Both the position numbers and the translations under genes were made by a program. From Lamellibrachia satsuma (Eukaryota; Annelida; Polychaeta; Sabellida; Siboglinidae), in assembly GCA_033239005.1 (NCBI GenBank), contig BSQZ01000070.1:203617-267616 (forward strand): a DNA stretch of 64,000 bases, given 5' to 3'. This document shows positions 12,923 to 54,266 of the stretch, piece by piece. The stretch's first letter is position 1. Each line of letters opens with the position of its first letter. The notes beneath the pieces are model-generated. The model was not told the origin of the DNA, did not search any database, and saw only the letters and a program-made list of their open reading frames with translations.

Positions 12923-12984
12923 TCTTTCTGTTCGATAGAGGTTGTGCATTGAATCACATATGAACTGATCTTTCTGTTCGATAG

Positions 12985-35967: not shown

Positions 35968-35968
35968 T

Positions 35969-36001
<33 letters not shown>

Positions 36002-36545
36002 TGACCTATGACCGGGTAGTGACCGTGACGAATCATACGTAGTAATTATAGGGTCATTAGTAATTAATAATAGGATCGTTAATTATATCAACTATCAAAG
36101 GGGACTAATGGAGACGAGAAATCAACGCAACACGATAGGGTACGAGTGCACACGTATTTTATTGAGTATAATACAAGCAGCATGGCGATACATCAAGCGT
36201 GGTAGCGTGTAATATCACTACAACTACAACTACGATGAATATATATGAATCGACTTGCGTATGTTGACCATCGCGCCAGAGGTCGTGAGCTTAGGGGTGT
36301 TTCCACCGCGCCAGAGGCTCGAGGATGACGACGACGAGGCGACTTGCGGATGTTTACCATCACGCCAGAGGTCGCGAGCTTACGGGTGGTGCACCACCTC
36401 GCCAGAGGCTCGAACGATGATGATGATGTGGTGTACTACTGCTGCTGCTATGAGCGATAATACAGTGTACCACAATATCGCAGCTGTTTTAAGCCAATCA
36501 AATACGCGGCAATCATTAACTACTGAATAGGTGCCGAATATATCA
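35968..36545. other. Left subterminal region of Polinton B
   Basis: Contains a (TG)n tract (about 35,971-36,001), AT-rich sequence, and two ~70-bp blocks at about 36,255-36,420 built on CGCCAGAGGTCG(T/C)GAGCTTA and CGCCAGAGGCTCGA. These lie downstream of the protease stop, i.e. in the 3' flank of the late gene block. No gene. Confidence 0.7.
36158..36163 (-). terminator. Poly(A) signal AATAAA for the late gene block
   Basis: AATAAA on the minus strand, about 380 bp past the protease stop and the first strong signal after the late genes. It probably ends all leftward late transcripts. Confidence 0.6.
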
Positions 36546-37034
36546 TCAGTCTCTGTAAGATACACGATAGTAGGGTATACCCTTTTTCAATAGTCTCATC
36601 CAATCGAACACTTCAACATCGTTATTGACCAGATTAGTGTGGAACATGTTTACGAAACTCTTCATAGAAGAACCTTTACAACGAAACATTACATAAGCAA
36701 CACAATATTGTCCGCAAACGTTAGACAGAGGACTCTGAAGCCTCTGGGTATTATGAGTCCATTCGGAACAGTGTTTGTTCAGGAAGGTGCGGAACGCTGC
36801 GTAACGAGGCGGCAGTCCGTACGAGCAGAAGTATTCGCCGCGTCCGTCGGCGTCCAGGTACAGCGCTATCCAATGTTCGCCTGGTTCGTCGCCGTTGTCG
36901 GTGTTGCACACGAAGGCTGCGGGCAGAGTGCCGTCTATCGTAGTGGGTAGTCCGTCTCTGGGTACGACGCCGCGAAATATAGTTCTGGTGCACGGGTCCA
37001 CTGCCAGTAGTCTAGCGATCTGCAGGGTGTCCAT
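36546..37034 (-). CDS. Adenain-like cysteine protease, copy B
   Basis: 162 aa. The family is the adenovirus-protease/Ulp1-like cysteine peptidases of Polintons, which mature the capsid. The expected order is visible: a His in GEHWIALY, an acidic residue in the following GRGEYFCSYGLPP, then Gln and the catalytic Cys in LQSPLSNVCGQYCVAYV. The length is short but usual for Polintons. The start lies one base beyond the major capsid stop. Copy A lacks this gene because of its truncation. Confidence 0.92.
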   Translation of the reverse strand: MDTLQIARLLAVDPCTRTIFRGVVPRDGLPTTIDGTLPAAFVCNTDNGDEPGEHWIALYLDADGRGEYFCSYGLPPRYAAFRTFLNKHCSEWTHNTQRLQSPLSNVCGQYCVAYVMFRCKGSSMKSFVNMFHTNLVNNDVEVFDWMRLLKKGIPYYRVSYRD

Positions 37035-37035
37035 T

Positions 37036-38352: not shown

Positions 38353-38749
38353 CGTCGTCGAATATGTCGGCCTCGCGTTTCGCGGACGTCTGTCTCTTGC
38401 GTCGTCTCTTTGCTAAAGTGACTGCTTTCTTTGCCGGCGCGCGTTTTATACGTTTTCGAGGACGCACGCCAGGAACCACCATACGCATCAGATTCCTACC
38501 GGCGTCTGTGACGCGTCGTTTGGTTGCCTTTTTTATGCTCTGTCCAGACATGACGTCGTCGGCTATGCGCACGCCGGTCTTCAAAGCCCCCTTTCCCAAC
38601 GCCACGGCACCTCTCTTGATGAGCGGCATGGCGCTGCGCAGCAGACCGGTGAACAGACTACCTAGTCCATGTCCCCGCTGGTATTGAGCACCGGCGAAGT
38701 AGGGCAGTGCACCACCTGCCTGACGCGCGTAATACTCGTTGTAATTCAT
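38336..38749 (-). CDS. pVI/pX-like basic virion protein, copy B
   Basis: 137 aa, intact. The N-terminal GGALPYFAGAQYQRGHGLG and amphipathic SLFTGLLRSAMPLIKRGAVA are followed by a very basic C-terminus (RPRKRIKRAPAKKAVTLAKR). Proteins of this kind lie between penton and major capsid in many Polintons and are compared with adenovirus minor virion proteins (cement, membrane-active or core). Which one it corresponds to is uncertain. It starts 2 bp after the penton stop. Confidence 0.75.
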   Translation of the reverse strand: MNYNEYYARQAGGALPYFAGAQYQRGHGLGSLFTGLLRSAMPLIKRGAVALGKGALKTGVRIADDVMSGQSIKKATKRRVTDAGRNLMRMVVPGVRPRKRIKRAPAKKAVTLAKRRRKRQTSAKREADIFDDDGIRT

Positions 38750-38751
38750 CT

Positions 38752-39627
38752 TCAGAACAGTCCGATCCTGCGCCGTCGAAAATGAAGTGTCACGGTCACT
38801 CTACCGTACTCGAATGGCACGCGCCGTCCTGTGTCGTCCCTTATATCGATTTCAATCGACTTGAAGTGCGAGTACAACAGAGGCACGTAGTGAATGTTAG
38901 TGAACCTGTCGGATACCGTTTCGCCGTGACGTCCGCCAACCGGGAGGGCTCGCAACAAAGGCGCGACAGTGTCACCTACTATGCGAGACTCCACGACGTC
39001 CGTGTAAACGTATATGGTATCAAACCCTTGATTCATCTGCACCACGTGTTTGGCCTCTTTATGGAAGGGGTACGGAGCATCGGAACTGTGTGTAGGTGGC
39101 GGTGGTATAACCACGCTGGCTGACGATCTAACTGGTCTCGGGTTATCGCGCTGGTGTGTGCTGTCTGGTGCCGGCGGACTGGTGACGATCGACTCACGAA
39201 ATCCTAACATAGATCCTAACGCACTGTGCTGCGGTATGCTGAACACGGTGTTGTATGACATGTGCAACGTCATTTTATGAGTGATCACACTGTAGGTCAA
39301 TTTAGCTTGTGTCTTGTCCGTTGACATAAGTCGCAAACCCCTGTTTACACGGTTCATCAATGTCACAGGACCTCTGTAATACCCAGTGGCTAACTTCATA
39401 CTCGGGATACGACCCGTAGGACTGTTCTCATTGAGGAAGAACCAGACATCTTCCTCTGTAACGTTGTGCCACGTATGCGGGTACTGTATTTCTGCCAACC
39501 CGCATTCCCACTCGCCAGTCAGATCGATAAGTCGAGGTAAGTCTGTGATGTAATGAGCCAACGTATTGTTGGGATACATCTTCATGGAAGCGTTGCTAGG
39601 CAGTGTCAAGTAGAAATCAGTCGCCAT
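38752..39627 (-). CDS. Penton-like minor capsid protein (single jelly-roll), copy B
   Basis: 291 aa, intact. It starts MATDFYLTLPSNASM and continues GEWECGLAEIQYPHTWHNVT, both diagnostic of the Polinton minor capsid family. A Pro/Ser-rich linker (about residues 148-190) divides it, and the C-terminal half has TIYVYTDVVESRIVGDTV and ALPVGGRHG. It would sit at the capsid vertices. The start overlaps the preceding membrane gene by 11 bp. Copy A lacks most of the linker. Confidence 0.92.
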   Translation of the reverse strand: MATDFYLTLPSNASMKMYPNNTLAHYITDLPRLIDLTGEWECGLAEIQYPHTWHNVTEEDVWFFLNENSPTGRIPSMKLATGYYRGPVTLMNRVNRGLRLMSTDKTQAKLTYSVITHKMTLHMSYNTVFSIPQHSALGSMLGFRESIVTSPPAPDSTHQRDNPRPVRSSASVVIPPPPTHSSDAPYPFHKEAKHVVQMNQGFDTIYVYTDVVESRIVGDTVAPLLRALPVGGRHGETVSDRFTNIHYVPLLYSHFKSIEIDIRDDTGRRVPFEYGRVTVTLHFRRRRIGLF

Positions 39628-39952
39628 TACGTCTCAACGTGGGATTGGGGAGCAGGTAACCCAAAGAACTACTCAACAGAGCCGTCCACAGAGTAGAATT
39701 CTCGTGACCTGTGGTCAGATTGTAAATGCTTATGAGAATGACCGTAAACAAGATGAGCACCTGACACAGAAAGACTATTTCCTCTTTAGGACACGCGGTA
39801 CCGAACAGATGCCAAGGAGTGCTACCGCTACTGCTACTACTGCTACTGTCCTCTACGTTCTGCGCGTCAGTACTGTCCTCTACTGCTACTACGTCCTCTT
39901 GTTCCTCCTGTTCTACGACGGTGAAGTCTCGTGTTGTCGTGTCATGTGTCAT
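39617..39952 (-). CDS. Small acidic single-pass membrane protein, copy B
   Basis: 111 aa. An acidic, Ser-rich N-terminus (VEQEEQEDVVAVEDSTD, SSSSSSSGS) leads to STPWHLFGTACPKEE, one membrane helix (FLCQVLILFTVILISIYNL) and a conserved end (LWTALLSSSLGYLLPNPTL). The CPK-E...LLPNP pattern is a recurrent Polinton feature of unknown role. It overlaps the integrase stop (ATGA) and the penton start. A conserved TATA box lies 36 bp upstream. Confidence 0.85.
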   Translation of the reverse strand: MTHDTTTRDFTVVEQEEQEDVVAVEDSTDAQNVEDSSSSSSSGSTPWHLFGTACPKEEIVFLCQVLILFTVILISIYNLTTGHENSTLWTALLSSSLGYLLPNPTLRRNGD

Positions 39953-41055
39953 GTCTCGAATGAAGTCTTACCGAACGCGTGGCTAGTCTTTATAGTAGAC
40001 TGCACCAGTGCCTTGGCATCGATCCAGCTGTTGAATTTGGAGGGGTAGCCGAACCATTTCACGAAAACTTGATTTCGTCCACCTACCTTGCGACGATCCA
40101 GGACCTCTTGTACGTAGAACAGTTTATCGGGGGGTACCAACACTTTCTGCAGCTCCATTTCGTAGAAGGTACCTTCCAGCACTTCGCCGAGATCGTCCTT
40201 CAATCGATACACGGGTGGAGCAGAGGGATGAACCTCGTGTATCGTGAAAATCTCTTCGCTCCAATTCGCCGTGTACCCCTTTTCGAACTTACCTTTGTAC
40301 TTGCTGATACGTACGCGATCCGACACGCGCAACTTGGGCACGCCCTTACCGTCGTGACCGTACAGTCGCTGCCACACCTTTTCCTGATTACGGTAACTCA
40401 CCTGTGAAGGAGCCATGCCGATACTGCGGTGGTAGCTGTTGTTGTACGAATGCACCAGGTCCTGAAGGATGTTGATGTATCGCCACGTCTGGTGTTTCGT
40501 GAAGTATCGCCACATGCGTGTCTTCAACGTCCTGTTGAATCTTTCCACGATGCACGCCTTCGTCTCCGCGTTGTGCGTGGAGAAGTGATGGATGTTGTGC
40601 TTCTTCAATAGAGCCTGGACGGATTTATTCAGAAATTCCTTTCCTTGGTCTGTCTGCAACACCTTTGGCCAGCCTTTGCTGAACGTGCTGTCAAGTGCCG
40701 CTACCAACGACGCCGCGGACTTGTTCTTCATGGGAACACACCAGGCCACTTTCGAGAAGACGTCGATCACCGTGAGGAGAAAGGTCATACCGTCGTTGTG
40801 CTTTTTCAAATGCGACAGATCGACGAGATCGGCCTGCCACTGCTGATGCAGACCGCTCACGATGACGCGTCGTCTCTCGAAACGACGTCTAGCCGGCTTG
40901 TGTAGGGTATAGGCGTCCTGTTCCGACAACCATTCCGCGACCTTTTTTCTTGATATGTGCGTGACGCGTCGCAAGGCATCGGGTCCGCCGTAACTACCTA
41001 CCCTTTTCGGATCGAAGTAGACCGTCCTAAGTGCTCGTTCTTTCTTCGGTGCCAT
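39949..41055 (-). CDS. Retrovirus-type DDE integrase with chromodomain, copy B
   Basis: 368 aa from MAPKKERAL, whose ATG overlaps the preceding TAA (TAATG). Catalytic triad: first Asp in WQADLVDLSHL, second Asp in VLQTDQGKEFLN, Glu in CIVERFNRTLKTRMW. The C-terminus has an SH3-like region (VSDRVRISKYKGKFEKGY) and a chromodomain-like end (EVLDRRKVGGRNQVFVKWFG, then SKFNSWI). It catalyses insertion of the element; the chromodomain may guide target choice. An in-frame start 60 bp upstream would overlap the small membrane protein and is less likely. Confidence 0.95.
   Translation of the reverse strand: MAPKKERALRTVYFDPKRVGSYGGPDALRRVTHISRKKVAEWLSEQDAYTLHKPARRRFERRRVIVSGLHQQWQADLVDLSHLKKHNDGMTFLLTVIDVFSKVAWCVPMKNKSAASLVAALDSTFSKGWPKVLQTDQGKEFLNKSVQALLKKHNIHHFSTHNAETKACIVERFNRTLKTRMWRYFTKHQTWRYINILQDLVHSYNNSYHRSIGMAPSQVSYRNQEKVWQRLYGHDGKGVPKLRVSDRVRISKYKGKFEKGYTANWSEEIFTIHEVHPSAPPVYRLKDDLGEVLEGTFYEMELQKVLVPPDKLFYVQEVLDRRKVGGRNQVFVKWFGYPSKFNSWIDAKALVQSTIKTSHAFGKTSFET
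39988..39994 (-). promoter_or_regulatory. TATA box for membrane protein/penton transcript, copy B
   Basis: TATAAAG inside CTATAAAGACTAG, within the integrase 3' end. The same 13-base word is kept in copy A (22,310-22,322). It is 36 bp upstream of the next ATG. Confidence 0.72.
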
Positions 41056-41216
41056 TAAAAGAGTTCCGATGGACTGACGGTTGTGACGTTTACTGCGCAG
41101 CACGGTGCGCAGCACGGTTCGTGACGACTAAGAAAGAGTACGCTGACGTACACCAGAAGCCCCACTACCACACCCAAGACGATGACGAATGATCTATATT
41201 CTAGTACTGTGATCAT
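41055..41216 (-). CDS. Small membrane protein 2, copy B (53 aa)
   Basis: One membrane helix (FVIVLGVVVGLLVYVSVLFL) followed by a cysteine-rich tail (EPCCAPCCAV). It overlaps small protein 1 by 23 bp and the integrase start by one base. Copy A keeps the hydrophobic core, which supports it as real. Function unknown. Confidence 0.68.
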   Translation of the reverse strand: MITVLEYRSFVIVLGVVVGLLVYVSVLFLSRHEPCCAPCCAVNVTTVSPSELF

Positions 41217-41337
41217 ACTCTGCAGAGCAAATGTTGTAAAGATTTCGCACTACGGCGTCAGCAATCAAGTACAGTCCAACGCAAAATACTGTAACGACGA
41301 CGGAACGGTAGTACGTGTCCTGTGGATCGTTCGACAT
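41194..41337 (-). CDS. Small membrane protein 1, copy B (47 aa)
   Basis: MSNDPQDTYYR, then a hydrophobic helix (VVVTVFCVGLYLIADAVV). The copy A version begins MSSDPQDAY. Placed between the 265-aa gene and small protein 2. Function unknown. Confidence 0.65.
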   Translation of the reverse strand: MSNDPQDTYYRSVVVTVFCVGLYLIADAVVRNLYNICSAEYDHSTRI

Positions 41338-41376
41338 CGCAGTGCACACTGAGCTGTGGACACGTGTTGCAACGAC

Positions 41377-42174
41377 TTAAATGTCTTCCCAACTAGCCAA
41401 TGACGTCAGTGCCTTGCGTTGACGTTCTGGAGGTGGAGTGAGCATGGAATGTTCCATTTGTCCGCGTCGACGAGCGAGGGGTGTCCAACTGAGCGATCTT
41501 CTTGCGCTAGCACCACCAGAACGAGGAGTAGCCGGTATTCGACGACGACCTGGAGTGGTCGGTGTCGGTGCCTGGCGTTTGTAGTCTCTCCTGGCGACGT
41601 TACCGACCAACTCCATGGGCAGGTTCATGGCACGGAGTTGTCTTGCAAACGGTTGCCATCCCGTCGGATTGGTCTTTCTCTTGCGCAACACATCGTTCAC
41701 GAGATCCACCACGTTACTTCCGGCGATGGGCACACCCTCGTGTATCAGTTCGCCGCGGGCGGTCCAAGACATGTTTCTTTTCATGCGTTCCATCAACCGT
41801 CTGGCTTTGCCTTGCATGGTCTTGGGAACGGTATCCACGACGTCGGCCTCCATCTCGCTAGCAGGAGCTTCCCCCGGCCCCGCCTCCGCCCCCGGCCCCG
41901 GCCCCGGCCCCGGCCCCGGCCCAGACTCATTCACCGAGATCACTCGTGTCGGTTCCTTGGCGTGTTTATCGGACAAGACGTTATACCGTTGCAACACCTG
42001 ATTATACAATGTGACCTTGGTCCTGTCGTCGAGGTCCTTTCTGTCGAGGATGGCCGTCATCTCGTCATCGAGAGCTCGCACCTTCTTACCTAAGGTATCC
42101 GTCGGGGGTGGGGGTGATCGAAGCGTGTCCAACATTCGTGGATCTACCAAGGCCATCTTGCGTGCGTGTTCCAT
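41377..42174 (-). CDS. Polinton-conserved 265-aa protein, copy B
   Basis: Intact. N-terminal MEHARKMALVDPRMLDTL, a helical LDDEMTAILDRKDLDDRTKV, a Gly-Pro dipeptide run (about residues 97-115), then the conserved core VPKTMQGKARRLMERMKR, RGELIHEGVPIAGSNVVDLV and GWQPFARQLRAMNLPMELVG, and a basic Ser/Thr/Pro tail. The core recurs in Polintons of many animals; its role (perhaps in the core or in DNA binding) is not established. The ATG directly follows the TAG of the upstream gene. Confidence 0.8.
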   Translation of the reverse strand: MEHARKMALVDPRMLDTLRSPPPPTDTLGKKVRALDDEMTAILDRKDLDDRTKVTLYNQVLQRYNVLSDKHAKEPTRVISVNESGPGPGPGPGPGAEAGPGEAPASEMEADVVDTVPKTMQGKARRLMERMKRNMSWTARGELIHEGVPIAGSNVVDLVNDVLRKRKTNPTGWQPFARQLRAMNLPMELVGNVARRDYKRQAPTPTTPGRRRIPATPRSGGASARRSLSWTPLARRRGQMEHSMLTPPPERQRKALTSLASWEDI

Positions 42175-42576
42175 CTAACCTCCCGAACGAAGGTGACGCG
42201 ATCTGGTTGCTTGCGGGAGCAGCACCTCTCGAAGCAAGGGTAGAAACACCGAACTTGCCAATGGTGCTAGGAAGGCCGATAGGAACCCTCCGCTCTGTCC
42301 CTCGCCGACCTGTCGGTTCAGCAAGAGGCGTCTTCTTCTACCGGCCGACGTTCGACTGTGAGCCAACTCCCGTAACCTCTTCCTGTATTTACTCAAACGA
42401 CGCCTCTGTAATGCAGACAATGGAATGTTCTGTTTTAATATGTTGTAGGCACACTCGGCTAGCGCACACAAAAGATCGGCGTCAGCGTTTTCGATGATGG
42501 CTCTTTTCAGTTTGTTGTTCTTGATCCTGTTCAGCGCCTGTATGCATATAATGTGTCTCTTCACCAGGGCAGACAT
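42175..42576 (-). CDS. pX-like small Polinton protein, copy B
   Basis: 133 aa from MSALVKRHIICIQ. This start was chosen because it follows a TATA box and matches the copy A start; the longer open frame upstream lies inside the ATPase gene. Features: DADLLCALAECAYNILKQN, a basic stretch (RTSAGRRRRLLLNRQ) and a hydrophobic end (GGFLSAFLAPLASSVFLPLL). The likely role is a virion core or membrane-active protein, by position and composition only. Confidence 0.75.
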   Translation of the reverse strand: MSALVKRHIICIQALNRIKNNKLKRAIIENADADLLCALAECAYNILKQNIPLSALQRRRLSKYRKRLRELAHSRTSAGRRRRLLLNRQVGEGQSGGFLSAFLAPLASSVFLPLLREVLLPQATRSRHLRSGG

Positions 42577-42610
42577 GGTGGGAATGAAGAGACTATCCAC
42601 GCGTGCGGTC

Positions 42611-42618
42611 TTTTTATA
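42611..42618 (-). promoter_or_regulatory. TATA box before the pX-like gene, copy B
   Basis: TATAAAAA at the very 3' end of the ATPase gene, 35 bp before the ATG at 42,576. Copy A has lost it at the matching place. Confidence 0.65.
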
Positions 42619-43240
42619 CCTTCGGCAAGTACACGTACTGAACACCGTCGTCTGGAAAGATGGCCGTGCGCAGACGCATGTCCTCCGGCGTGTCCTGCTT
42701 GAGATCGACCAATAGATAACCGTACGGTACCGAGGTGGCGTCTTTAAAAGCCTCTTGAACGAATTTGGCGCGCCCCGGATACATCTGTCGAGCCAAGTGC
42801 GACATCTGCGATGCGTCACGAGGATTCTTGAATACCACCATGTACTGAGAATTCAGACTGATGGTACGACTCTCTTTGTTTTTGGGGAAAAGGTTCTGTA
42901 CGAGATACAGCACGGACGTGTTCCTGTGATGACTCTTTTTAGTGAACAAGGTCGTGACCCGTTCGTCCGTTTCTGCCATGAGATCGTCTATGACGATGAG
43001 GTTCCTCGTCGACGAATCGAACATGCTAGCACTCGGCAATCCTTCCTCGAAGCGCACGTCCGTCAAGTCCATCGTTGCGTAAGCCTCTTGCCATTCTCCG
43101 TAACACCACGTGATCCGTTCGGGAGGAGGATCGATCATCGCAGCAGCGTGACGTAGCATACGCGTCACGAAAGTACTTTTGCCGCATCCCGTCGGACCGG
43201 CGACGATGCACGTGAAAGGATGTTTCCACCGCGCGTCCAT
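42614..43240 (-). CDS. FtsK/HerA-type (A32-like) DNA-packaging ATPase, copy B
   Basis: 208 aa, intact. Walker A GPTGCGKSTFVTRML near residue 15, Walker B NLIVIDDLM near residue 78, and a downstream sensor-like stretch (NTSVLYLVQNLFP) with Arg-rich residues. It begins MDARWKHPFTCIVAG and follows the polymerase stop by 39 bp. It packages the element DNA into capsids in the self-replicating, virus-like form. Confidence 0.95.
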   Translation of the reverse strand: MDARWKHPFTCIVAGPTGCGKSTFVTRMLRHAAAMIDPPPERITWCYGEWQEAYATMDLTDVRFEEGLPSASMFDSSTRNLIVIDDLMAETDERVTTLFTKKSHHRNTSVLYLVQNLFPKNKESRTISLNSQYMVVFKNPRDASQMSHLARQMYPGRAKFVQEAFKDATSVPYGYLLVDLKQDTPEDMRLRTAIFPDDGVQYVYLPKV

Positions 43241-43279
43241 GGTCGCTTATGAAAGACGACCGCAGTGCATCGTCCTTTT

Positions 43280-46200
43280 CTACACGTCCACCGGACCCGT
43301 GCTCACCCCGTCCTCGTGCACCACTCGTTTGGGGTAGAAGTAGGTGAGAGCCGCTCGTTCCTGCACGTACGTCATCACGGTCGAGTGACGCACCCGGAAC
43401 CCACGGTTCTTTCCACTTCCGCTCCGACGGTTGGTGAGCACCTCCAGGAACGCGTTCTTGTCGATGTCGTTGTGACGTTTGCTCAGTCCTTTGGTGCTGT
43501 ATTTGTCGGTGGGCCCGAAACAATAGTACGTCTTGCTGCACAACCCCACGAACCCGTCGCCGGACCATTCCACCTTGAACAGACCAGGTGTCCTCTTGTC
43601 GTACGCCCTACGCGCTTTACAGCACGCCTCGTCGCCGACCCACGGTCTATTGGCGAGTCGACAGCGCACGTACTCGTTCCGATGATGGTCGCAACATTCG
43701 GACGGCAACCATTCGGAGCGGTGCCGGAAGTAATGTTCTCGTAGTTCCGGAGTCACGAGGGCGTCGACGGACTCGCCGGCCAAGGCCAAATAGGCAGAAT
43801 CTGTATCTGTCTCGCAGTACTGAAAAAGAGGGCGCTCCAGGTACCTGTCGATGAAGTCGTAGTAGAACTGTAACATGCGCATCTTGGCGTACTGCAGAAC
43901 GAAGAATCCCACGTGTATGGGCAGGGTGTACGTGACGGTCTTCTTGTTCATCTCTATCTCGTACGTATCGTCCACGATGACATCGAGTTGTCGGAATCTC
44001 TTATCGTTGACCAAGAGCGATGCCGCCTTCTCCTTGCAATAATTGACGTCGCGATGTCGGTCCACGTTGGTTATGGTCTTTCCGTAACCCGAGTTCCCCA
44101 GCAACTTCATGGTGTCTGCGATGATGGCCTTGTGCGAGTGGACGTCTCCTTCGCGTCGCGCCGCGGACACTGCATCGCCGAACCGTCTGAAACACGGGAC
44201 GGGATCGTACTCGATGACCTGATACACGTGCGTCACCTCGAGACCGTGGTCCATGTACCATCGCAGCAGAGGCGTGGCAAGCAGGATCTTATCTCCTCGA
44301 TAACTACCCACGAGCATGCGTCTCGGTGTCGTCATGATGTCGTGCTCCTCGGCGTATCGGCGCATGAACGGTCCGAGATCGTCGCGTGTCAGTCGGATGT
44401 TCTTGAACACGGGCTGCATCTCGGCAAAGTGTTCTCGCAATGCTTCCGGTACGCAAAGGTCACACTCGATCAGACCGAACACGGTTCCGGCACGCACGCC
44501 GCTCAGGATCTGTTGTGACGTCATCGTCCATCGTGCGTGACGTCGGCGCGGAAATGCAGCATCCAGAAGCTTTTTCACGACAGGATCTCGTCTCGTCTGT
44601 TTCCACTCGCATTCCCACATCTCTACGACTTTGACAAAGTGACGGAGGTAGACGGTGTTCTTTCGGGTCTCTTCGAGCAGTTCAGCCATGGGTTTCCCGT
44701 TGACCTCGTTGACCTCTTTGCCAGTGCACGAGTGACCATGGAAAAAACATCCGTGGTACTGATAAGCCGTTTTCGTCTCGCTGCACCACCCGTCCACCAG
44801 CAGTTTGCCTATTCTCTTCTCTCTACCGTTGATCTGGTGTCGTATGACGCGTCCCGTGCGTTCGGATTCCCAAGTCAACCATTCCGCGGCCATCTGACCG
44901 TACAGCTGCGCCGATTCCGGTCGGAAATCCTTCTCTTCCCGTCGTCGCGTGTACCATCCCATAGGCATGTCTTGCATGAGTGACCACAAGTACAGGGCAT
45001 TGGCATCGTATCCAACGATGGACCTACAAGGACGAGCGGCCTCCCGTACTCGTTCTGACGTAGCGTGGTGACCCCTTTCTCGTGATAGCGATGAAAAATG
45101 AGCGAAGCCCCGCCAACCACGTGATCTTTGACGAGATGATGAAGATCTTTATTCTTCTCGTTGAATATGGTAAAGTAGGTCTTCTCGGGAAGGTCGTTGA
45201 ACAGGTAGAGCAAGGTCAGACCAGGTACGCTGATGCCTTGCTTGAACATGTCTATGCCACGTTGTTCGTAGAAGGCAAACTGTCTGTCGATGGCCTGCAG
45301 AAAGGGAACCACGTCTCTGTTGTTGTACCAGACGAGAAAGTCTCGCAAAGTCGTCATGGAATTGTCGCGCCAGGCCTCTTGACAACTGGCATAATCCTCG
45401 TCGGAGATACCTTCGTTCTTCAGTCGACTGAAGAAGGCCTGTTTCGATGGAAGTGCAGTGTCGTCGAGTCTCTCCAAACGGTCCATGTACTCGTACGGGA
45501 AATGACCTTTTGTCACCTCGCATCCGTACGCCTTCAGATACTTGTCGTAACTGAACCCGGGAGCTATGTAGTTGGTCATGTCTAGGAATTTCAGCTGATC
45601 CGTCGAAAGACACATGAAAGTGTTGTTGCGTTTGATGACGAAAAAAGTACCGACACCCTCATTCTCTTCGTCTTTGTCGTCTTGTTCTTCTTCTTGTTCT
45701 TCTTGTTCTTCTTGTTCCTTTGATCCGGTGGATAAGAAGTAGGGTATGAGAAACTGTTTGATGGCATTGAGATCATACTTACCCGAATTGAACCCGATGA
45801 CAGGTAACTGATGCATCCAGCCATAGAGTTGTCCCATCAGCTTTTTGTATGGATTGGTCGTCGGACGAGATTTCTTCTTATCGATGGCTGCTCGTGCAGC
45901 CTTCTCGGTTTCGTCCCATTTCGTCAGTTCCTCTGCGAGTTGATCCAAGACATCTTCGTACGAGTGTTTGATCTTGTCGTACGCGGCGTCACTCATCGCT
46001 TGTAAGATATTCATCATTCTACTCACCAACTTGTTGGTGTCTCCGTCCGTGACGAGACATTGCACTCGCTCGTGACCGGGAACGTTGGATGCTACGCTGA
46101 CGCTCAGTGGAACGTGACGCGCCACCCAGTGGACCTTGTCACTGTCCGACGGAAGTTGTTCCGTGTCGAACCAACACTCGAAATCAAAGGTGGCTCGATA

Positions 46201-47721
46201 CGGATAGTAGCGCAACGATTCAGCCACGCGAATGTTCTCGTCGTCCAGACGTTCGAACACCGATGGTGTGGAATGGTACACGCCGCCAGGATAGACTCGA
46301 CGCACACCTCCCGTACACGTGCGCTCGTGTCGATACAGCAACCATGCCTTTTTCCATAACGAGTCACCGCACTTCCGACATCGATACGAGTTGCAGTACA
46401 TGCAGACATCTTGGATGAATGAAAAATGTGTCCCGTGAAGGTTGAGATACATTGTTTCGGGGTAGTTGCATAACGATCGACGAACCAGTTCGGCAGTCGA
46501 CTTACCGTCCTCCTCACTGACAAGACGGTACACGCACACATTCGTTTGGAACGTGGTCTCTACGCGATAGAGGTCATCCAGCGTGACCCCTGTAAATTCT
46601 TCCATGGGTACGTGATCTCGATCGTATGTCTCGTAGAGCGTCTTCACCGCCGGTTCCAATCGATATAGATCGCATCCTCGATGCAGGGCCAGACATCGGA
46701 ACACACACAGGTTATCTTTGTACCTCTTGTTATGGATGGGATCCGTTTCCAGTCCGATGATGCTTTTCTTCTTCTTGATGTAGGATGGTAGAGAGATCAT
46801 GCCTACACATCCTATAGGATGATCGATGATGTGATTAACGAAAAAAGTGACATTCGTCACGAGTTCGCATACCCACGCAGAATCCGGTCTTTGATTGATG
46901 GCCCATTGCAAGAGGTCGGGTTCTCGGATGCGTTCGAGAAATTTATCAAAGTCCTTGCTGTTGGCGACGAGACTGGGTTCGTCCAGGTAGCGTCCACAGC
47001 AATTACAAGAGGTATGATAATACTTGTATTGACCCGTGTTCTTGTTTCTCAGAATGAACCCGTAACTGAGGTTAATCTTGAACGCATTGGTCTGTTCCTG
47101 GAACATGATCTTCAAAGACGGTTCCAAGTCGGTCGTGTCTAGCGTGATTAATCTGTAATCGTACCTGCATTGAAGTGGACCTCTGAACGCGTGGGTCCGT
47201 ATAGCAGACCAGTGCACACGAACGACATCTAGCAACTCCGTCGACAGAGTATCGGCGAAGGGAAGTCGATCAGGTGGGTCTAACGGATCTTCCTCGGTAA
47301 CGAGGGGATGGTTTTGAGATGGGATAGTGTCTTCTCTTGTTGATCTCTTTGGTGCTGGTGGCTCGGTGACGTCGGTACACGTGGTTCGTGCGTGCATGGT
47401 CAGATTGTAACGTTTTTCGAACTTCCGTCCGCATTTCTTACACGCGTAGACGATGCTTCTACTACTTCTACTACTACTACCTCTACATACCGACCTTACG
47501 TGACGCTGTAGGTTGTTATATCTCCCGAAGGTGGCGCCGCATTTCTCGCATGCGTATTTCGCTCTCTTTGCATAGTCGCTGCGTGGCGCCACCATAGGCG
47601 GTGCCATCGAGTATGAATGTAAGTCGCATGATGGCGTCGAGTGAGTACTCTGCACGTGACGTTGTAGTTCTGCGCACGTGTCGAAGACGAGCTCGCAGTG
47701 ACGACACTGGTGTCTTTCCAT
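43280..47721 (-). CDS. Protein-primed family B DNA polymerase with N-terminal C2H2 zinc fingers, copy B (one frameshift)
   Basis: About 1,480 codons in two frames: 47,721 to about 45,042, then on to 43,280. Comparison with copy A places a one-base loss near 45,041, between the exonuclease and polymerase motif A. N-terminal C2H2 fingers: CRHCELVFDTCAELQRH, CEKCGATFGRYNNLQRH, CKKCGRKFEKRYNLTMH. Exonuclease: FDFECWFDTE (near 46,180), GFNSGKYDLNAI (near 45,780), WYNNRDVVPF (near 45,320). Polymerase: motif A near 44,995, KLLGNSGYGKT near 44,085, TDTDSAYLAL near 43,800. The start MERHQ is preferred over an in-frame ATG at 47,775, because a TATA box lies between them. The loss could be a real inactivation or an assembly error. 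Confidence 0.93.
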
Positions 47722-47762
47722 GACTGCGTCTACAACTGAGAGGGAATGGACTCTCAGTACAT

Positions 47763-47769
47763 CTATATA
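47763..47769 (-). promoter_or_regulatory. TATA box of the DNA polymerase gene, copy B
   Basis: TATATAG 42 bp upstream of the ATG at 47,721. The sequence just before the ATG (CAGTTGTAGACGC) is also kept in copy A before 14,879. Confidence 0.7.
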
Positions 47770-47794
47770 GTGCATGCGAGGTGGATAACATGTA

Positions 47795-48245
47795 AGAGAC
47801 GTTCCTATTGGTCAATTACTAATTAACATGGGTACTATTGACCAATCAGCGTTAAGAGACGTTCCTAGCTTGATTCCTATTGGTCAATTACTAATTAACA
47901 TGGGTACTATTGACCAATCAGCGTTAAGAGACGTTCCTAGCTTGATTCCTATTGGTCAATTACTAATTAACTATTGACCAATCAGCATTAAGAGACGTTC
48001 CTAGCTTGATTCCTATTGGTCAATTACTAATTAACATGGGTGCTATTGACCAATCACGAATAACCTAACATGAGTACTATGGCCTCTCACTACATCTATA
48101 TAGTAGCTGTGAGGTGGATAAGATGTCAATCATTAATAAGAGACGTTCCTATTGGTCAATTACTAATTAACATGGCTACTATTGTCCAATCACAAATGAG
48201 AGACGTTCCTAGCTTGATTCCTATTGGTCAATTACTAAAAAGGGG
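47795..48245. promoter_or_regulatory. CCAAT-box tandem array upstream of DNA polymerase, copy B
   Basis: About six ~65-70 bp units, each with ATTGGTCAATTACTAATTAA and GACCAATCA, so every unit holds an inverted pair of CCAAT boxes, plus AAGAGACGTTCCTAGC. Positioned directly upstream of the polymerase TATA box, it looks like an amplified NF-Y-type upstream promoter. Copy A has a different array at the same place. Confidence 0.75.
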
Positions 48246-48362
48246 CGTTCCTAACTTGGACACTATGTCCATCATAATCGACTACGGGTTTCCCTTTCGT
48301 GAAGAGGGGTGTCAGTCGTGCGAATAATGAAGGTACAACACGTTCCATTCCATTTTGACTAT

Positions 48363-48368
48363 TTTATT
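48363..48368 (-). terminator. Poly(A) signal AATAAA for the accessory block
   Basis: AATAAA on the minus strand, downstream of ORF3 in the sense of transcription and upstream of the polymerase promoter. It is a natural end for the SSB/ORF2/ORF3 transcripts. Confidence 0.55.
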
Positions 48369-48434
48369 CAATAGAATACATTGTCTATGAAATATATATA
48401 CTGATATGAAAAGATAGGCTTCTCTATATATAAG

Positions 48435-48645
48435 TTGATGATGATTGACTTGTGGGCTTTTACACCACGACAGAGGTCACGTGTGTGAATAATGGCTGAC
48501 TTGTGGGCTTTTACACCACGACAGAGGTCACGTGTGAATAATGGCGGACTTGTGGGCTTTTACACCACGACAGAGGTCACGTGTGTGAATAATGGCGGAC
48601 TTGTGGGTTTTTACACCACGACAGAGGTCACGTGTGTGAATAATT
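48435..48645. repeat. Four ~52-bp tandem units with CACGTG
   Basis: Units of GGACTTGTGGGCTTTTACAC, CACGACAGAGGTCACGTG, TGTGAATAATGGC. The core CACGACAGAGG is also found once in copy A (about 14,055, other orientation). It lies in the 3' flank of the accessory transcripts. Confidence 0.9.
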
Positions 48646-48689
48646 GTATATAGAGAAGTCGATCTCTTCATGCATAAAGATTACTATAT

Positions 48690-49247
<558 letters not shown>

Positions 49248-49277
<30 letters not shown>

Positions 49278-49913
49278 TTCTTGTATTAAGTATGCTTGCA
49301 TCTCCTCTGACAGTAGCCGAGTGCATCCTTCTGCACATACGTTGACAGTAGCTTCGGCTACTGTCAGAGGTGTGTTGTGTGCTTTATGCATGATGAGATG
49401 CGTGATTGCTTCTGTGATCATGGTATTTGCTATTTCTGGGTTTAAAATGTTCGGTTTCGTTGGTGATGATGCTAAAATAATGTTTTCTTCGCAGCAGCGG
49501 TCGCAGGTGCAGGGTAATGTTGACGATGTTGATGGCTGCTGTGTGTCGGAGGATGGCGGTGTTAACAATGTCTTGTTCATTGTTTCGAACGACGGTGACG
49601 ATGGCGGCGACGGTGACGATGGTGGCGATGCTGGTGTGAATTCGAATGTTTGTAGACAAGACGGCGGTGGGGGTGGCGGTGTCATTGATGCTGCTGCTGC
49701 TGTCACCGTCGTAGCTGCTGCTGGGGTTGCTGCTGGGGTTGCTGCTGCTGCTGCGGTTGGTGCTGTAAACCGACGTTTTCTGTTGAGCACCAACCGCAGA
49801 TCGTTTGCAGGCAATTTTCGTTTGCGCTGCTGTTGTGGTGGTAGTATCTTGTCATCGTCGACGTCATCGGCTTTTTCGTACGCCTCGCGTAACTGACGCA
49901 GGCCGTTATGGAT
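49248..49913 (-). CDS. ORF3 accessory protein exon, copy B
   Basis: Open for 221 codons from an acceptor-like site (TTGTTGTCCCGTCTATAG ending at 49,914) to the stop at 49,248, with no early ATG. It begins I-H-N-G and includes LREAYEKADDVDDD, a basic QQQRKRKLPAND (possible nuclear signal), Ala/Thr and Pro runs (SMTPPPPPPS, SPPSSPSPPSSPS), a Cys cluster (CTCDRCCEE) and a helical end. The frame is phase 0 with the GTAAGC donor in the SSB gene. Similar to copy A ORF3 at its start and in layout. Function unknown. Confidence 0.65.
49307..49369. repeat. Inverted repeat inside ORF3 (CTCTGACAGTAGCCGA)
   Basis: CTCTGACAGTAGCCGA at about 49,307 and its exact complement at about 49,354. The right side alone also folds as TGACAGTAGC, TTCG loop, GCTACTGTCA. 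Lies within coding sequence. Confidence 0.85.
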
Positions 49914-49944
49914 CTATAGACGGGACAACAAAAGACACACCTGT

Positions 49945-50565
49945 TTAATCAATGTCAGGAACTTCATTGTTACCCGCATATAGACTGGCTATGGTCGCTC
50001 TGATCGTGTCTGCCATATCGTCATGCCATTGCCTTTTACCAACCCTCTCCTCTATCGCTATGACAACCCAGCGCAAGATGTGATTGATCAGACCGGAAGA
50101 CGGTACGTAATATTCACCTTCCGATAAATCTAATATACGCTCAACTTCATTACATGCATAACGAACACAAGCTGCGTCTATCAATGTGTTGAAGGTGTTC
50201 TGGTTCATCATGGCTTCTGTACGATTTCGTATTCTGTCTATGTTCATTGCTGTCGCCTGCATATCGTTGCCACCACTGCTGCTACCGCTGCTGCCGCTGC
50301 TGCTGCTTATGGTCATAGCTGTTTCGCTGCTTACGCTAATAACCGCATCTTTATTTTCCTCGTCTGTTATACACAGAGTCGGTTCGGTAGAGGAAGTGAT
50401 GGATGGTGTGGATGGTAACAGATTACGTTGTTCATACGAGTCTAACCACTGCTGTACCTTTTTATTCATGGTATTTTCCCAGTCCCGTATCTTTTCGTAC
50501 GCGCTTTCTGTACTTTCATTGCTGTTGTCAGAGCTGGTGGCGATGGCATTCTCTTTGTCTTCCTC
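49945..50565 (-). CDS. ORF2 accessory protein exon, copy B
   Basis: Open for 206 codons from directly after TTCTCTTTGTAG (acceptor-like, ending at 50,566) to the stop at 49,945. The first ATG is only at 50,469. It begins with an acidic, Ser-rich stretch (EEDKENAIATSSDNSNES), then AYEKIRDWENTMNKKVQQWL, a second Ser-rich part and a helical C-terminus (ACVRYACNEVERILDL, LINHILRWVVIAIEE). The C-terminus matches copy A ORF2. It is in phase 0 with the SSB-gene donor at 50,996. Function unknown; the acidic/Ser-rich plus helical layout would suit a nuclear regulator. Confidence 0.68.
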   Translation of the reverse strand, partial: EEDKENAIATSSDNSNESTESAYEKIRDWENTMNKKVQQWLDSYEQRNLLPSTPSITSSTEPTLCITDEENKDAVISVSSETAMTISSSSGSSGSSSGGNDMQATAMNIDRIRNRTEAMMNQNTFNTLIDAACVRYACNEVERILDLSEGEYYVPSSGLINHILRWVVIAIEERVGKRQWHDDMADTIRATIASLYAGNNEVPDID

Positions 50566-51068
50566 CTACAAAGAGAATGCCTCGTCAAGAATTTCCAACT
50601 CTGATGCAATGTAGTTTACGTACTCCTTGTTGACACGCTTTTTAATGGTCGCTCTGACACGGACCCCCTCAACACAGACAGGGCTGCCACCCGTTCGTCT
50701 TCTGACTTCATTGCAACGTACTCGTTCGCGGTGAAGCCAAGGATTTTAACTGCCAGCGTATCAAATACGCTAATCCAACATTCACTGCCTATGCTGTCCT
50801 GCAGGAGAACACGGAGGTTGAATCTATACGCTGGAGACCGCTGCCATTTGTGCGTCGAACAGTAGAAGCCCTTACTGGTACTACGCTGGACTCCTACGGG
50901 GCACTGCGAGCATGCCAGATATACTACATATCTCTCCTGCCGTGCGGTAGACACTATGGTTAACGGTGTTGGAAACTTGTATGTTCCAGCGCTTACCTCC
51001 GATTGCAAACGCGTCAGGGTCATCATATGTTCGTCGTCGAAGAGCTGCTGTTGTGCGGCGGCGGCCAT
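50566..51068 (-). CDS. RPA-like single-stranded DNA-binding protein, copy B (one frameshift)
   Basis: Starts MAAAAQQQLFDDEH. Zinc-ribbon OB domain: C-x2-C in ACSQCPVG, then C-x-x-H in YCSTHKW, then the OB strand set (SECWISVFDTLAVKILGFTANEY), as in the RPA70 C-terminal DNA-binding domain. A one-base discrepancy in the C5 run at 50,664-50,668 shifts the last ~32 codons; the other frame continues in homology to copy A and ends at 50,566-50,568. Homopolymer error is a plausible alternative to a true mutation. The stop TAG doubles as the end of the ORF2 acceptor. The likely role is coating single-stranded DNA during strand-displacement replication. Confidence 0.8.
50995..50996 (-). promoter_or_regulatory. 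Predicted splice donor in the SSB gene (leader exon end), copy B
   Basis: GAG followed by GTAAGC after codon 24 of the SSB gene, close to the animal donor consensus and in phase 0. Acceptors ending at 50,566 and 49,914 are both phase 0. Confidence 0.6.
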
Positions 51069-51150
51069 CTTGCTTCGGTAGATCGAGAGAGACTTTCGAG
51101 TGAACGAATCGCTGCGAGAATCGTGTTATGACAGTTGCAGCTGCGGGTCC

Positions 51151-51158
51151 CTTATATA
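51151..51158 (-). promoter_or_regulatory. TATA box of the SSB/leader transcript, copy B
   Basis: TATATAAG 83 bp before the SSB ATG at 51,068, in the gap after the NADAR stop. Confidence 0.7.
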
Positions 51159-51259
51159 GCGAGCCGGTAGCATGGCGCGTCTGTGTTATATTTACCAGCT
51201 GGCCCTCTGGTATGTATTGCGCAATCACCGCGCATTCCTATCGCTATGCGCGCCAGACT

Positions 51260-51727
51260 TTATGGCGCCTGTTTTTTTCGAATGAACTCGCGGCAATTCA
51301 CGAATATCTGGCCCAACACGTTCTGTCCACGCTGTCCAGTGTAAGTGGACATGCTCCAGTATCCCTCCCTACTTCTCACATTTTCCATTAACGACGCTGG
51401 ATATGTTTCTAATAATAGTTTGCGTAATGTCGTGTCGCGAAATTTAATAGCAACTAACGCTCTCATTACATATCGTCTCTGTTTGTTCCACTGCGCGCGT
51501 AACTCCTGTTTCTCTCGGATGGTCTTGCTTAGATATTTCGCCTGTAGTCCGGTTCTTGTGGCAAGCATTTTCTGTGCCGTGTCGACATCTCCATAAAAGA
51601 TGCATTTCCTGTACTGGTATGCAGCTTCAACTGTGCTAAAAACATGACCCCATGCATGTATCCTACATGCGTAGAAATTGGATAGAAACGAGGTTTCTCC
51701 ACGGAAGTATATAGCAGGAGGAGTCAT
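51260..51727 (-). CDS. NADAR (YbiA/DUF1768) family protein, copy B
   Basis: 155 aa, intact. Motifs of the family: FRGETSFLSNFYACR, then TVEAAYQYRKCIF (the conserved E-x-A-Y-Q-x-x-K), ATRTGLQAKYLSKTIR, YVMRALVAIKFRD and, at the end, GYWSMSTYTGQRGQNVLGQI. NADAR enzymes cleave N-glycosidic bonds of ADP-ribose-type substrates. Bacterial DarG-type members reverse guanine ADP-ribosylation of DNA, and YbiA acts on riboflavin intermediates. The domain fills the whole protein. It has its own TATA box (51,760) and diverges from the membrane repeat gene. A possible role is removing host ADP-ribose marks from element DNA or nucleotides; this is inference. Confidence 0.88.
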   Translation of the reverse strand: MTPPAIYFRGETSFLSNFYACRIHAWGHVFSTVEAAYQYRKCIFYGDVDTAQKMLATRTGLQAKYLSKTIREKQELRAQWNKQRRYVMRALVAIKFRDTTLRKLLLETYPASLMENVRSREGYWSMSTYTGQRGQNVLGQIFVNCREFIRKKQAP

Positions 51728-51759
51728 TCATTTATGCTGTTTAATGTTACATGCACTGT

Positions 51760-51768
51760 ATTTATATA
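51760..51768 (-). promoter_or_regulatory. TATA box of NADAR, copy B
   Basis: TATATAAAT 33 bp before the ATG at 51,727. Confidence 0.68.
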
Positions 51769-51770
51769 CA

Positions 51771-51862
51771 TAAAATGCATGCATATATTAATGCATGCAT
51801 AAATTAATGCATGCATAAATTAATGCATGCATATATAACTTAATGCATATGCATTAATGTCC
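51771..51862. promoter_or_regulatory. Palindromic ATGCATGCAT array in the divergent promoter, copy B
   Basis: Four ATGCATGCAT palindromes spaced by AAATTA/ATATTA, about 16-17 bp apart, then TTAATGCATATGCATTAA. It lies between the NADAR TATA box and the promoter of the membrane gene. It could be a shared regulator site or a replication-related palindrome. Confidence 0.7.
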
Positions 51863-52289
51863 ACCAGTTTCCATGCAGCAATAACTTCCATAAGTACACG
51901 GTGTTTTTATGCGTGATAAATGAGTTTTCGGATTCAGCGTTAGTTAGTTGACAAGCTTATCGAGGGAGGAGTTGTTTACTGTTTCGTGCAGAATGTCTGG
52001 AATCGATACAACGTTGGTTGAGAACTGGTTGACTTTGTTTTTTACACGTGATAAATGAGATTTTGCTTTCAGCATCGATTCTCTGACACTTCTGTGACAG
52101 ACTTATCGAACATGTTTTTCGTTGTGAAGGATGACTTATTGTTCTAGCGGATTTGGGAGTTGATTGTTAGCATTCCAGTTTAATAATAATTTTATTATGG
52201 GTGTTTTCTAACATAACTTTCTGACTTTGATGGATTTGTTATTGTGTTATAGCAGCTTATGTCAGCTGTCTGCATTGTTTAGCGTTTCC
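51863..52289. other. Divergent intergenic region, copy B
   Basis: Contains two diverged copies of a block with GTGATAAATGAG(A/T)TTT, CAGCGTTAG/CAGCATCGA and GACAAGCTTATCGA/GACAGACTTATCGA (about 51,913 and 52,047). No gene is seen. Confidence 0.5.
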
Positions 52290-52298
52290 TATATAAAG
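52290..52298 (+). promoter_or_regulatory. TATA box of the membrane repeat gene, copy B
   Basis: TATATAAAG 86 bp upstream of the predicted ATG at 52,384. Copy A has TATATAAAG at the matching place. Confidence 0.68.
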
Positions 52299-52383
52299 CC
52301 GTCCTCAGACAAGGTATTTCTTTATACACTTACCGCCATTCTGCAACCGTCGTTCTGCTGCTGCTGCCTCTGACGTCATCACG

Positions 52384-53423
52384 ATGCTGTCTAGTGTCGC
52401 TTTGTTTTCCGACTTGATGCAAGCCTATATCGAGATTGGCGTTGCGTTGAGCCTGATACTGTATCGATCGTAAGTACATATTGTCCGTGGCTGTTTGGTG
52501 ATACGTACTCCTGTGTTTTTAAAAGGTTTTAAAAGCGTCTACATAACACACACAGTTTAACTTTAAGAGACATCTTTTATGCGTCTGTGACCTAGTTACA
52601 ATGCCTCTTGCTAAGCGGCTGGTAGTCTGATTATAAATAGCACGCGCGCCGCGTCGGCCGAGCGAGGTCGCCGTGTCAGTCTTATCAGTTTTTCGACGAC
52701 CTAGTTTCTACGCGCTTCTACGGCTGTCGGTGTAGCATTACATACGCCGTGGTGGATCCAAAGTACACCGCTCACAGCAGGTCTACTCATAGTTTATTAT
52801 TAACAGATGTGCATGTGCTATTTAATGTATATACGATGCTTTTAACACAGTCCTTTACCAATGGCTCAATGTGTCTTTCACTCTGATTTTTCAGCTTCCA
52901 TAGAATCCACTGGGCGTTCGTGATGAAACAGTTACGTGATCGTACGCCGCTCGTGGTCAACGACGACATCGTCGACGATGGTTATCAGTCCGAGAGTTGG
53001 GACAACGAGTGCGATGACTACGCTGCATTTATAGACCACAGAAAATTATGGGCTGGCGTTATGACGGAGCTAGGAATGGTGCGGCCAATAGAGAGGGTTA
53101 CCATGGAAATTGCCATGGGCTGCAATGCTATGGGTCAAGCGAGACAGCAACCTGCTAACGTTTACGCCGCATTGGTAAAACACAGAGCCCTGTGGCCGGC
53201 TGTCATGCAAGAAATGAAACTATTTAAATCACGTTCTCAGATAGAAATGGAAATGCTGTGGGGGTTTAACGATAAAGGGGAAATAGCAATACCACGTTCC
53301 GTCATAGAAATGGAAAAGGCCTGTAGGGAGTGCAGCAATGTAGTAAAACACCCACCAGTACAACGACCTACAAAACTTATTGACAGAAGAGAAAAATCAC
53401 TGCCACCACTGAACTTGTGTTGA
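52384..53423 (+). CDS. Spliced membrane protein with W-x-x-V-M-x-E-L repeats, copy B
   Basis: Predicted exons 52,384-52,469 and 52,895-53,423 (204 aa), intron 425 bp, donor GTAAGT, acceptor CTCTGATTTTTCAG, phase 2. Exon 1 supplies a membrane segment (AYIEIGVALSLILY). Exon 2 holds three related units: IHWAFVMKQL, KLWAGVMTELGMV and ALWPAVMQEMKLF, the last two within ~54-residue tandem repeats (DYAAFIDHRKLW..., VYAALVKHRALW...). The homologue in copy A keeps the same intron phase and the repeats but little else, so these are the constrained features. It is the only plus-strand gene of copy B and points to the element end. Function unknown; membrane-bound with repeats probably in the cytosol is inference. 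Confidence 0.75.
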
Positions 53424-53429
53424 AATGGA

Positions 53430-53870
53430 AAACAAGATGAACACTTTGTTTCAATATATGACTTTATATGCTTTAACATGACTATTTTTAAATGAACTAA
53501 TGAAAGATATTTATATGACTTTATATGCTTTATATATGGCTATTTTTAAATGAAATAACGAACGATATTTATATGCTTTAATATGATTAAATATATGGCT
53601 ATTTTTCTAAATAATTAATATGATTTTATGTGTTTTAATATGATATATATGGTTATTTTTTAAATAATGATATTACTATATTTATATGATTTTATGTGCT
53701 TTAATTTGATATATATGATTTGATATATATGGCTATTTTTTAAATATTACTATATTTATATGATTTGATATATAACTATTTTTAAATAATTATATTACTA
53801 TATTTTATGTGCTTTAATATGATGTATCGTTATTAAATATTAAAGTTTCTTGATGATTTCATTCAATGAG
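53430..53870. repeat. AT-rich tandem repeats, TATATGGCTATTTTTAAAT type
   Basis: Units such as GATTTTATGTGCTTTAATAT and ATATATGGCTATTTTTAAAT recur through the 3' flank of the membrane gene. Confidence 0.85.
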
Positions 53871-54099
53871 GTGTTGTGTCTGTTAGCAACAGGGTAACGC
53901 GGGGCACAACGAACCAACGGTTAGGGTATCGCGGACTACATCGAACCACGGATTATATGTCTTGGAATAAAATTACTCCTCAAGGATTGGGGTAGCGCTC
54001 ACATAGGGTAGCGGTCACTACGTTAGGGTAGCGGTCACTACTGAGGTCAAGGGTCGTCACACATGAGATCAACAGGTCGGAATCATGTCAACATGTTGG
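53871..54099. repeat. Right subterminal region of Polinton B
   Basis: Short direct repeats: GGTTAGGGTATCGCGGACTA-like and two exact GTTAGGGTAGCGGTCACTAC/GGGTAGCGGTCACTAC units. No gene. The mirrored left side shares only short words (GTAGTGACCG). Confidence 0.7.
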
Positions 54100-54266
54100 G
54101 GTTATGACCGTTAGGGTTATCTCCAGTCGCTAGGGGGCGCTCGTGGTGGATGTAGGTCGCCGCTAGGGGGCGCTGGGGGCTACCCAGAAGCCTCTATACC
54201 GGAAGTTACTGGGTTGCTCTTTACTGGGCTGCTCTTTTGATCCCTCAAAAGCACACTATAACTACT
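54100..54266 (-). repeat. Right terminal inverted repeat of Polinton B (167 bp)
   Basis: Reverse complement of 35,801-35,967 with one mismatch; ends ...GCACACTATAACTACT. Confidence 0.97.

Follow-up and report, generated by a model that had tools for sequence, protein, structure and literature searches.

In Polintons of the annelid Lamellibrachia satsuma, the gene for a single-strand-binding protein (SSB) probably lends its first codons to two downstream genes, ORF2 and ORF3, by a conserved, parvovirus-like alternative splicing with a shared leader. We read this from the arrangement of signals in two element copies, A and B, of the window analysed here (64,000 nucleotides of contig BSQZ01000070.1), and in their relatives from the same genome. 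A donor within the SSB gene and acceptors in front of ORF2 and ORF3 agree in phase and recur in three lineages of elements, and protein-level constraint begins upstream of any AUG. The features are listed in Table 1.

Table 1. Positions of the Polinton features in the window, with the evidence for each or a remark on it.
Feature	Position	Strand	Evidence or remark
Polinton copy B, 18,466 bp	35801..54266	.	terminal repeats and directly read flanks
TATA box (TATATAAG) of the copy B SSB transcription unit	51151..51158	-	sequence; conserved placement
Copy B SSB ORF	50616..51068	-	ATG at 51068; RPA C-terminal OB domain, PF08646, E 1.6e-11
Coding part of the predicted shared leader exon, 24 codons, start of SSB	50997..51068	-	sequence; in-frame constraint
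Copy B putative 5' splice donor GTAAGC, phase 0	50991..50996	-	after codon 24 (GAG, ends 50997)
Copy B putative 3' acceptor TTCTCTTTGTAG for ORF2	50566..50577	-	TAG doubles as SSB stop codon in 33 of 41 rows
Copy B ORF2, 206 aa	49945..50565	-	first in-frame Met at residue 33
Candidate branch point CTGAC for the ORF3 acceptor	49954..49958	-	motif class in 58 of 62 sequences
Copy B putative 3' acceptor TTGTTGTCCCGTCTATAG for ORF3, phase 0	49914..49931	-	sequence, conservation
Copy B ORF3, 221 aa	49248..49913	-	first in-frame Met at residue 77
TATA box (TATAAAA) of copy A	11756..11762	+	sequence
Copy A SSB region	11822..12301	+	in-frame TAA at codon 5
Copy A putative donor GTATGC, weak, GAC before it	11885..11890	+	junction 11884/11885
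Copy A putative acceptor TTTGTTGACAG for ORF2	12303..12313	+	two in-frame stops before it
Copy A ORF2, alanine-rich start	12314..12922	+	first Met is codon 38 past the acceptor
Copy A putative acceptor region GATCTTTCTGTTCGATAG for ORF3	12967..12984	+	tandemly duplicated in copy A
Copy A ORF3, 160 aa	12985..13467	+	first Met is codon 17 past the acceptor; three-helix C-terminal domain predicted

The two copies and their relatives

Copy B, which lies on the minus strand, is a genuine Polinton and looks complete. As in known Polintons/Mavericks, there are terminal inverted repeats (167 bp, 35801-35967 and 54100-54266, 99.4% identical), a 6-bp target-site duplication, TGCATC, found at both ends in the directly read flanks, an rve integrase with chromodomain (39949-41127, minus strand; Pfam rve, E 7.7e-15, and Chromo, E 7.9e-8) and a predicted IVa2-like ATPase (Adeno_IVa2, E 3.1e-5, above its Pfam cut-off). 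Two further likenesses are weak matches below the Pfam cut-offs, one to polymerase B (DNA_pol_B_2, E 0.0018, 43280-45148, minus strand) and one, in the protease-like ORF, to the adenovirus protease (Peptidase_C5, E 9.2e-4). A capsid-sized ORF of 458 aa (37036-38412), considered for the double jelly-roll capsid protein, was without Pfam match. From the SSB end the gene order is NADAR, SSB, ORF2, ORF3, the zinc-finger ORF and the polymerase-like ORF, followed by the ATPase, the integrase and the capsid-sized and protease-like ORFs. Copy B differs from known Polintons/Mavericks in its RPA-like SSB, for which a comparison with the PDB gave a weak match to RPA1 (E 0.0024), in its NADAR gene and in the two accessory ORFs, which are apparently spliced. 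Copy A is a diverged, broken relative, its ORF3 being 24% identical to that of copy B; no terminal inverted repeats were found for it in the stretches searched.

The comparison set consisted of 69 loci, all from the same host genome of 735 Mb. Copy B DNA gave at least 42 matches there, with the best 40 of 520 candidates scored, and 40 copy-B-like places were read (L001-L040). Since L001 is copy B itself, the 41 rows of the lineage-B alignment represent 40 loci, and the sets of 65 and 70 sequences used below count copy B twice. ORF3 of copy A, searched as a protein, yielded 107 matches down to 34% identity, and 28 places were taken from these (L041-L068). For the SSB there were at least 150 matches, with the best 150 of 826 candidates scored. 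Of the 20 loci L041-L060, 18 have the order SSB-ORF2-ORF3 (the exceptions are L051 and L054), as do three of the eight shorter stretches L061-L068, the rest of which are without one gene or end before it. The elements were sorted by eye into three lineages: B, A with its relatives, and C (L065, L066 and L068). The rows are related and no tree underlies the sorting, therefore the counts given here are not counts of independent events. At L048 and L049 (C31:3854300-3861900), a B-type SSB and ORF2 and a damaged B-type ORF3 are followed by the C-terminal region of an A-type ORF3, an arrangement which suggests recombination between lineages.

Splice signals and coding constraint

A preliminary description of the window had proposed a donor behind SSB codon 24 of copy B, acceptors directly before ORF2 and ORF3, phase 0 at all junctions, and equivalent sites in copy A. 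These sites are present: in copy B the codon GAG ends at 50997 and GTAAGC follows, all copy B junctions are in phase 0, and copy A has GAC/GTATGC at 11884/11885 and acceptors ending at 12313 and 12984. Conservation of donor, acceptors and phase among relatives, on which that description had staked its proposal, holds in nearly all sequences with findable sites. The donor region could be located by its SSB motif in 65 of 70 sequences (L035, L048, L051, L054 and L061 were left out), and in 63 of these 65 the donor reads GTRAGY or GTATGY; L014 and L046 have lost the GT. Where the last base of the exon is A, the intron begins with the full-consensus GTAAGT (5 of 5 cases), while the exon of copy A ends in C and continues with GTATGC. 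Wherever the first intron codon encodes Val it is either GTA or GTG (59 of 59 rows), whereas GTC or GTT occurs in each of five further conserved Val columns of the gene, which served as control; this comparison covered 61 of 70 rows. A self-written donor matrix, applied from -150 to +1000, ranks the SSB donor first in 48 of 65 sequences and in 39 of 40 B rows. One B copy, L032, has CAG/GTAAGA just beyond the scored range, at +1030, and this site outscores the SSB donor.

Both acceptor AGs are kept in 41 of 41 B rows, within TTTGTAG/GAG before ORF2 and TATAG/ATC before ORF3, each likewise in all 41. Matching acceptors occur in lineages A and C, namely TTGACAG/RAC or TTGACAG/GAG for ORF2 and ATAG, mostly with NACTRAT upstream, for ORF3. 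The ORF2 acceptor was not in range in L050, L062, L065 and L067, which were left out of the counts, and eight sequences in which the ORF3 acceptor was not found by pattern reduced that set to 62. A branch-point motif, CTRAY, precedes the ORF3 acceptor by 12-45 nt in 58 of the 62 (39 of 41 B rows, 19 of 21 others), compared with 284 of 3360 control AGs in B and 90 of 1728 in the others, i.e. 5.2-8.5%. The pyrimidine fraction before this acceptor is 0.67-0.73 versus 0.41-0.42 at control AGs, a value matched by merely 1.5-2.1% of other AGs. In copy A a tandem duplication of about 46 bp (12922-12984) doubles the ORF3 acceptor region.

The statement that the reading frames open exactly past the acceptors has to be read with care. 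It is correct for ORF2 and ORF3 of copy B, but a TAG that is both stop and acceptor makes such an opening partly automatic, and in copy A ORF2 opens 3 nt earlier (TGA, then CAG/AAC). In copy B the SSB frame is altered near its end and stops at 50616. In 33 of 41 B rows it continues as far as the TAG at 50566, so that the SSB stop overlaps the ORF2 acceptor. That the arrangement is more than chance is shown by its conservation across relatives and not by a single copy.

ORF2 and ORF3 of copy B lack early ATGs, as described before (Table 1); among the other stop-to-stop frames of this copy, 9 of 11 have an in-frame Met no later than codon 26, the exceptions being a downstream frame of the polymerase and an overlapping one. 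ORF2 is open to its end in 37 of 41 B rows and ORF3 in 30; in four further rows ORF3 stays open as far as the alignment reaches, and in seven it terminates early. The leader exon has a pN/pS of 0.11 in frame (41 B rows). For the first 50 codons of ORF3, all of which precede its first Met, pN/pS is 0.24 in frame versus 2.51 and 1.50 in the other frames (41 B rows), and the variable columns are distributed 7/9/26 over the three codon positions. The first two blocks of 15 columns of the lineage-A ORF3 gave 0.46 and 0.41 (18 of 19 rows); a Met at residue 17 occurs in three of 18 lineage-A rows. When the frame running through the ORF3 acceptor is compared between copy B and L066 of lineage C, 5 of 20 residues are identical before the acceptor, counting the stop common to both, and 12 of 20 behind it, with BLOSUM sums of 3 and 58, respectively. 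Two further pairs gave 5 identities before and 11 after, and 6 and 12. The start I-x-x-G of ORF3, earlier noticed at the acceptor, recurs in lineages A, B and C. ORF3 is therefore under protein-level constraint from the first codons past its acceptor.

For ORF2, coding upstream of any AUG is clear in lineage A and weak in B. The pre-ATG part in B has a pN/pS of 0.61, variable columns of 6/3/7 by codon position, and another frame with a lower value, 0.40. In lineage A, the block around VRKWLEDNSC gave a pN/pS of 0.21 and 250/103/500 differences by codon position (14 of 17 rows); this block precedes the first Met in 13 of 14 rows, the exception being copy A.

Proposed mechanism and its alternatives

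We infer from these signals that splicing occurs and that the leader is translated into all three proteins. One promoter upstream of the SSB would give a single pre-mRNA through SSB, ORF2 and ORF3. On the unspliced RNA, the first AUG would lead to the SSB. The host spliceosome would join the donor past SSB codon 19-24 to the first acceptor, setting a leader of 19-24 residues, which brings the AUG, in frame with ORF2; use of the same SSB donor with the second acceptor would set it in frame with ORF3. For copy B the predicted junctions are 50997/50565 (ORF2) and 50997/49913 (ORF3). The choice of splicing would then set how much SSB is made relative to the two accessory proteins, which would begin with the same residues. 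In 63 of 65 sequences a TATA string stands ahead of the SSB gene, at a distance of 105-175 nt from the donor, which fits a single promoter. Separate promoters for ORF2 and ORF3 were considered and fit poorly. In 8 of 65 sequences a TATA-like string is present within 850 nt past the donor, which counts against the model. Poly(A) hexamers gave no clear pattern.

Which donor is joined to ORF3 may differ between lineages. Elements of lineage A have at least two phase-0 donors inside ORF2, AAG/GTRAGR at K/VRKWL and AAG/GTGAGA at DK/VRE, which often score above the SSB donor. Both are strong in most lineage-A loci (mostly 10.3-11.2 bits) and use GTR with AGR codons, although AGR makes up only 28.5% of the Arg codons of these ORFs (149 of 522). 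In L066 and L068 of lineage C, a site at +633 inside ORF2 outscores the SSB donor as well. Given these higher-scoring sites, and that in L032, ORF3 could be joined to a donor other than that of the SSB. Splicing could then be real but proceed from the ORF2-internal donors to the ORF3 acceptor, producing leader-ORF2-ORF3 chimeras and no separate leader-ORF3. As a general explanation we consider this unlikely, since the corresponding places are weak or absent as donors in B (AAG/GTACAG and ACG/ATCAGA) and in C (AAG/GTAATG and TTG/GTTAGA), and among the sites examined only the SSB donor is common to all three lineages. In lineage A both routes may coexist. Thus, of the earlier proposal of splicing with a shared N-terminus, the conserved sites, the coding constraint past the acceptors and the one TATA box stand, while a direct leader-ORF3 join in every lineage does not follow, nor does an early-gene programme.

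A wider reading, which we put forward tentatively, combines these routes. One promoter, the SSB leader and several phase-0 sites would form a conserved and regulated combinatorial unit giving SSB, leader-ORF2 as a SUMO-binding regulator, leader-ORF3 and, in one lineage, leader-ORF2-ORF3 chimeras, by a logic like that of adenovirus E1A or parvovirus NS that evolved separately.

Explanations that do without the shared leader fare worse. Translation of an unspliced polycistronic RNA, with ORF2 and ORF3 reached by internal entry or near-cognate CUG/UUG starts, appears very improbable. The Leu codon near the ORF3 start is CTG or TTG in several families, however the conserved I-x-x-G lies before this Leu in A, B and C, and L068 has CTA at its position. 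In L065 of lineage C the first codon past the ORF3 acceptor is an ATG, so that translation could start there in this one copy, but the donor and branch-point signals are left unexplained by any such scheme. Read-through of the SSB stop codon would agree with the donor-to-ORF2-acceptor distance, which is divisible by 3 in 50 of 61 sequences and so usually puts SSB and ORF2 in one frame; it is hardly credible in view of the two in-frame stops in members of A and C with an intact frame (e.g. TAA CTT TGT TGA CAG) and of ORF3, which in the window copies is in another frame. Just as little can be said for a trans-spliced host leader RNA at the acceptors of operon-like cistrons, which the acceptor and branch-point signals alone would fit, because in that case the spliced leader must supply the start codon, and nothing accounts for the conserved donor within the SSB.

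Predicted proteins and comparison with known systems

Little is recognisable in the two accessory proteins by profile comparison. The predicted structure of ORF2 is poor (mean pLDDT 49.9) with a helical C-terminal region, and its only match in Pfam and PHROGs is a PHROG of unknown function (E 0.015). The ORF2 linker contains at least one SUMO-interaction-like (SIM-like) motif in 56 of 56 linkers, taken from 56 of the 70 sequences, and at least two in 15; among shuffled linkers 6.7% have one or more, the pattern having been written after the sequences were seen. ORF2 would accordingly be a candidate for acting on host nuclear SUMO targets. In the model of ORF3 the C-terminal three-helix part is confident, with values of 86-91 for blocks of 10 residues within residues 101-150. 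Comparison of this model with the PDB gave no match (best E 3.3), and Pfam and PHROGs gave nothing convincing for ORF3. No relatives were confirmed in viral contigs. Homology of ORF2 and ORF3 by exon duplication, suspected from their similar helix-W-helix ends, was rejected, as the profile comparison gave a probability of <1%.

In parvoviruses (NS1/NS2) and polyomaviruses (T antigens), unspliced RNA encodes the replication protein and spliced RNAs encode others with the same N-terminus. The unit proposed here resembles these in its RNA logic. It differs from them in that the leader protein is an SSB and that two successive acceptors would lead to two exons without detectable mutual homology. 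Small nuclear DNA viruses use host splicing to set the amounts of replication protein and regulators. If our reading is true, a Polinton depends on nuclear splicing of its host and can exploit it to set the ratio of replication protein to regulator.

A further consequence concerns annotation. If two genes have their first exon within the SSB, surveys which assume intron-free genes miss the true N-termini and may miss genes. The 59 ORF2 and 15 ORF3 proteins found in databases all begin with Met and none with the leader; they look like gene calls from internal starts and illustrate such missed N-termini. At least one large survey used a prokaryote-style gene caller, endogenous viruses being taken as intron-free (PMC10120064). 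Intact vertebrate Mavericks are described in PMC8097293 as showing no introns, in agreement with Kapitonov and Jurka 2006. The group I introns reported for cryptophyte Polinton-like viruses (PMC12220804) are of another kind. Searched by word, PMC11071308 contains neither 'splic' nor 'intron', and in PMC11071296 'splic' occurred once, concerning an iridovirus. Within titles and abstract openings, which mostly do not cover subscription journals, we found none that reports a Polinton undergoing alternative splicing by the spliceosome. The shared-leader mode proposed here is thus probably new for Polintons, within the literature searched.

According to PMC11071296, adintoviruses are animal elements resembling Polintons, with a chromodomain at the C-terminus of the integrase, and are defined by an OTU-like domain at the N-terminus of PolB together with a recognisable hexon. 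Copy B can be likened to them by its chromodomain integrase. The copy B ORF before the polymerase match (44875-47811, minus strand) begins with C2H2 zinc fingers; copy A has a weaker match at 15088-16068.

Some additional elements were observed in the window. Directly upstream of the copy B SSB there is a NADAR-domain gene (51260-51727, minus strand; PF08719, E 2.2e-18), an ADP-ribose-related enzyme carried by the Polinton, and an ORF resembling it takes the same relative place in copy A (10921-11295, plus strand). Close to its right end, copy B has on the other strand an ORF of 178 aa (52887-53423, plus strand) without convincing Pfam match. A long CA repeat (49060-49230) starts shortly past the ORF3 stop of copy B. 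Between the two Polinton copies lies a gene for a rhodopsin-like GPCR (27865-28905, plus strand; PF00001, E 5.3e-30).
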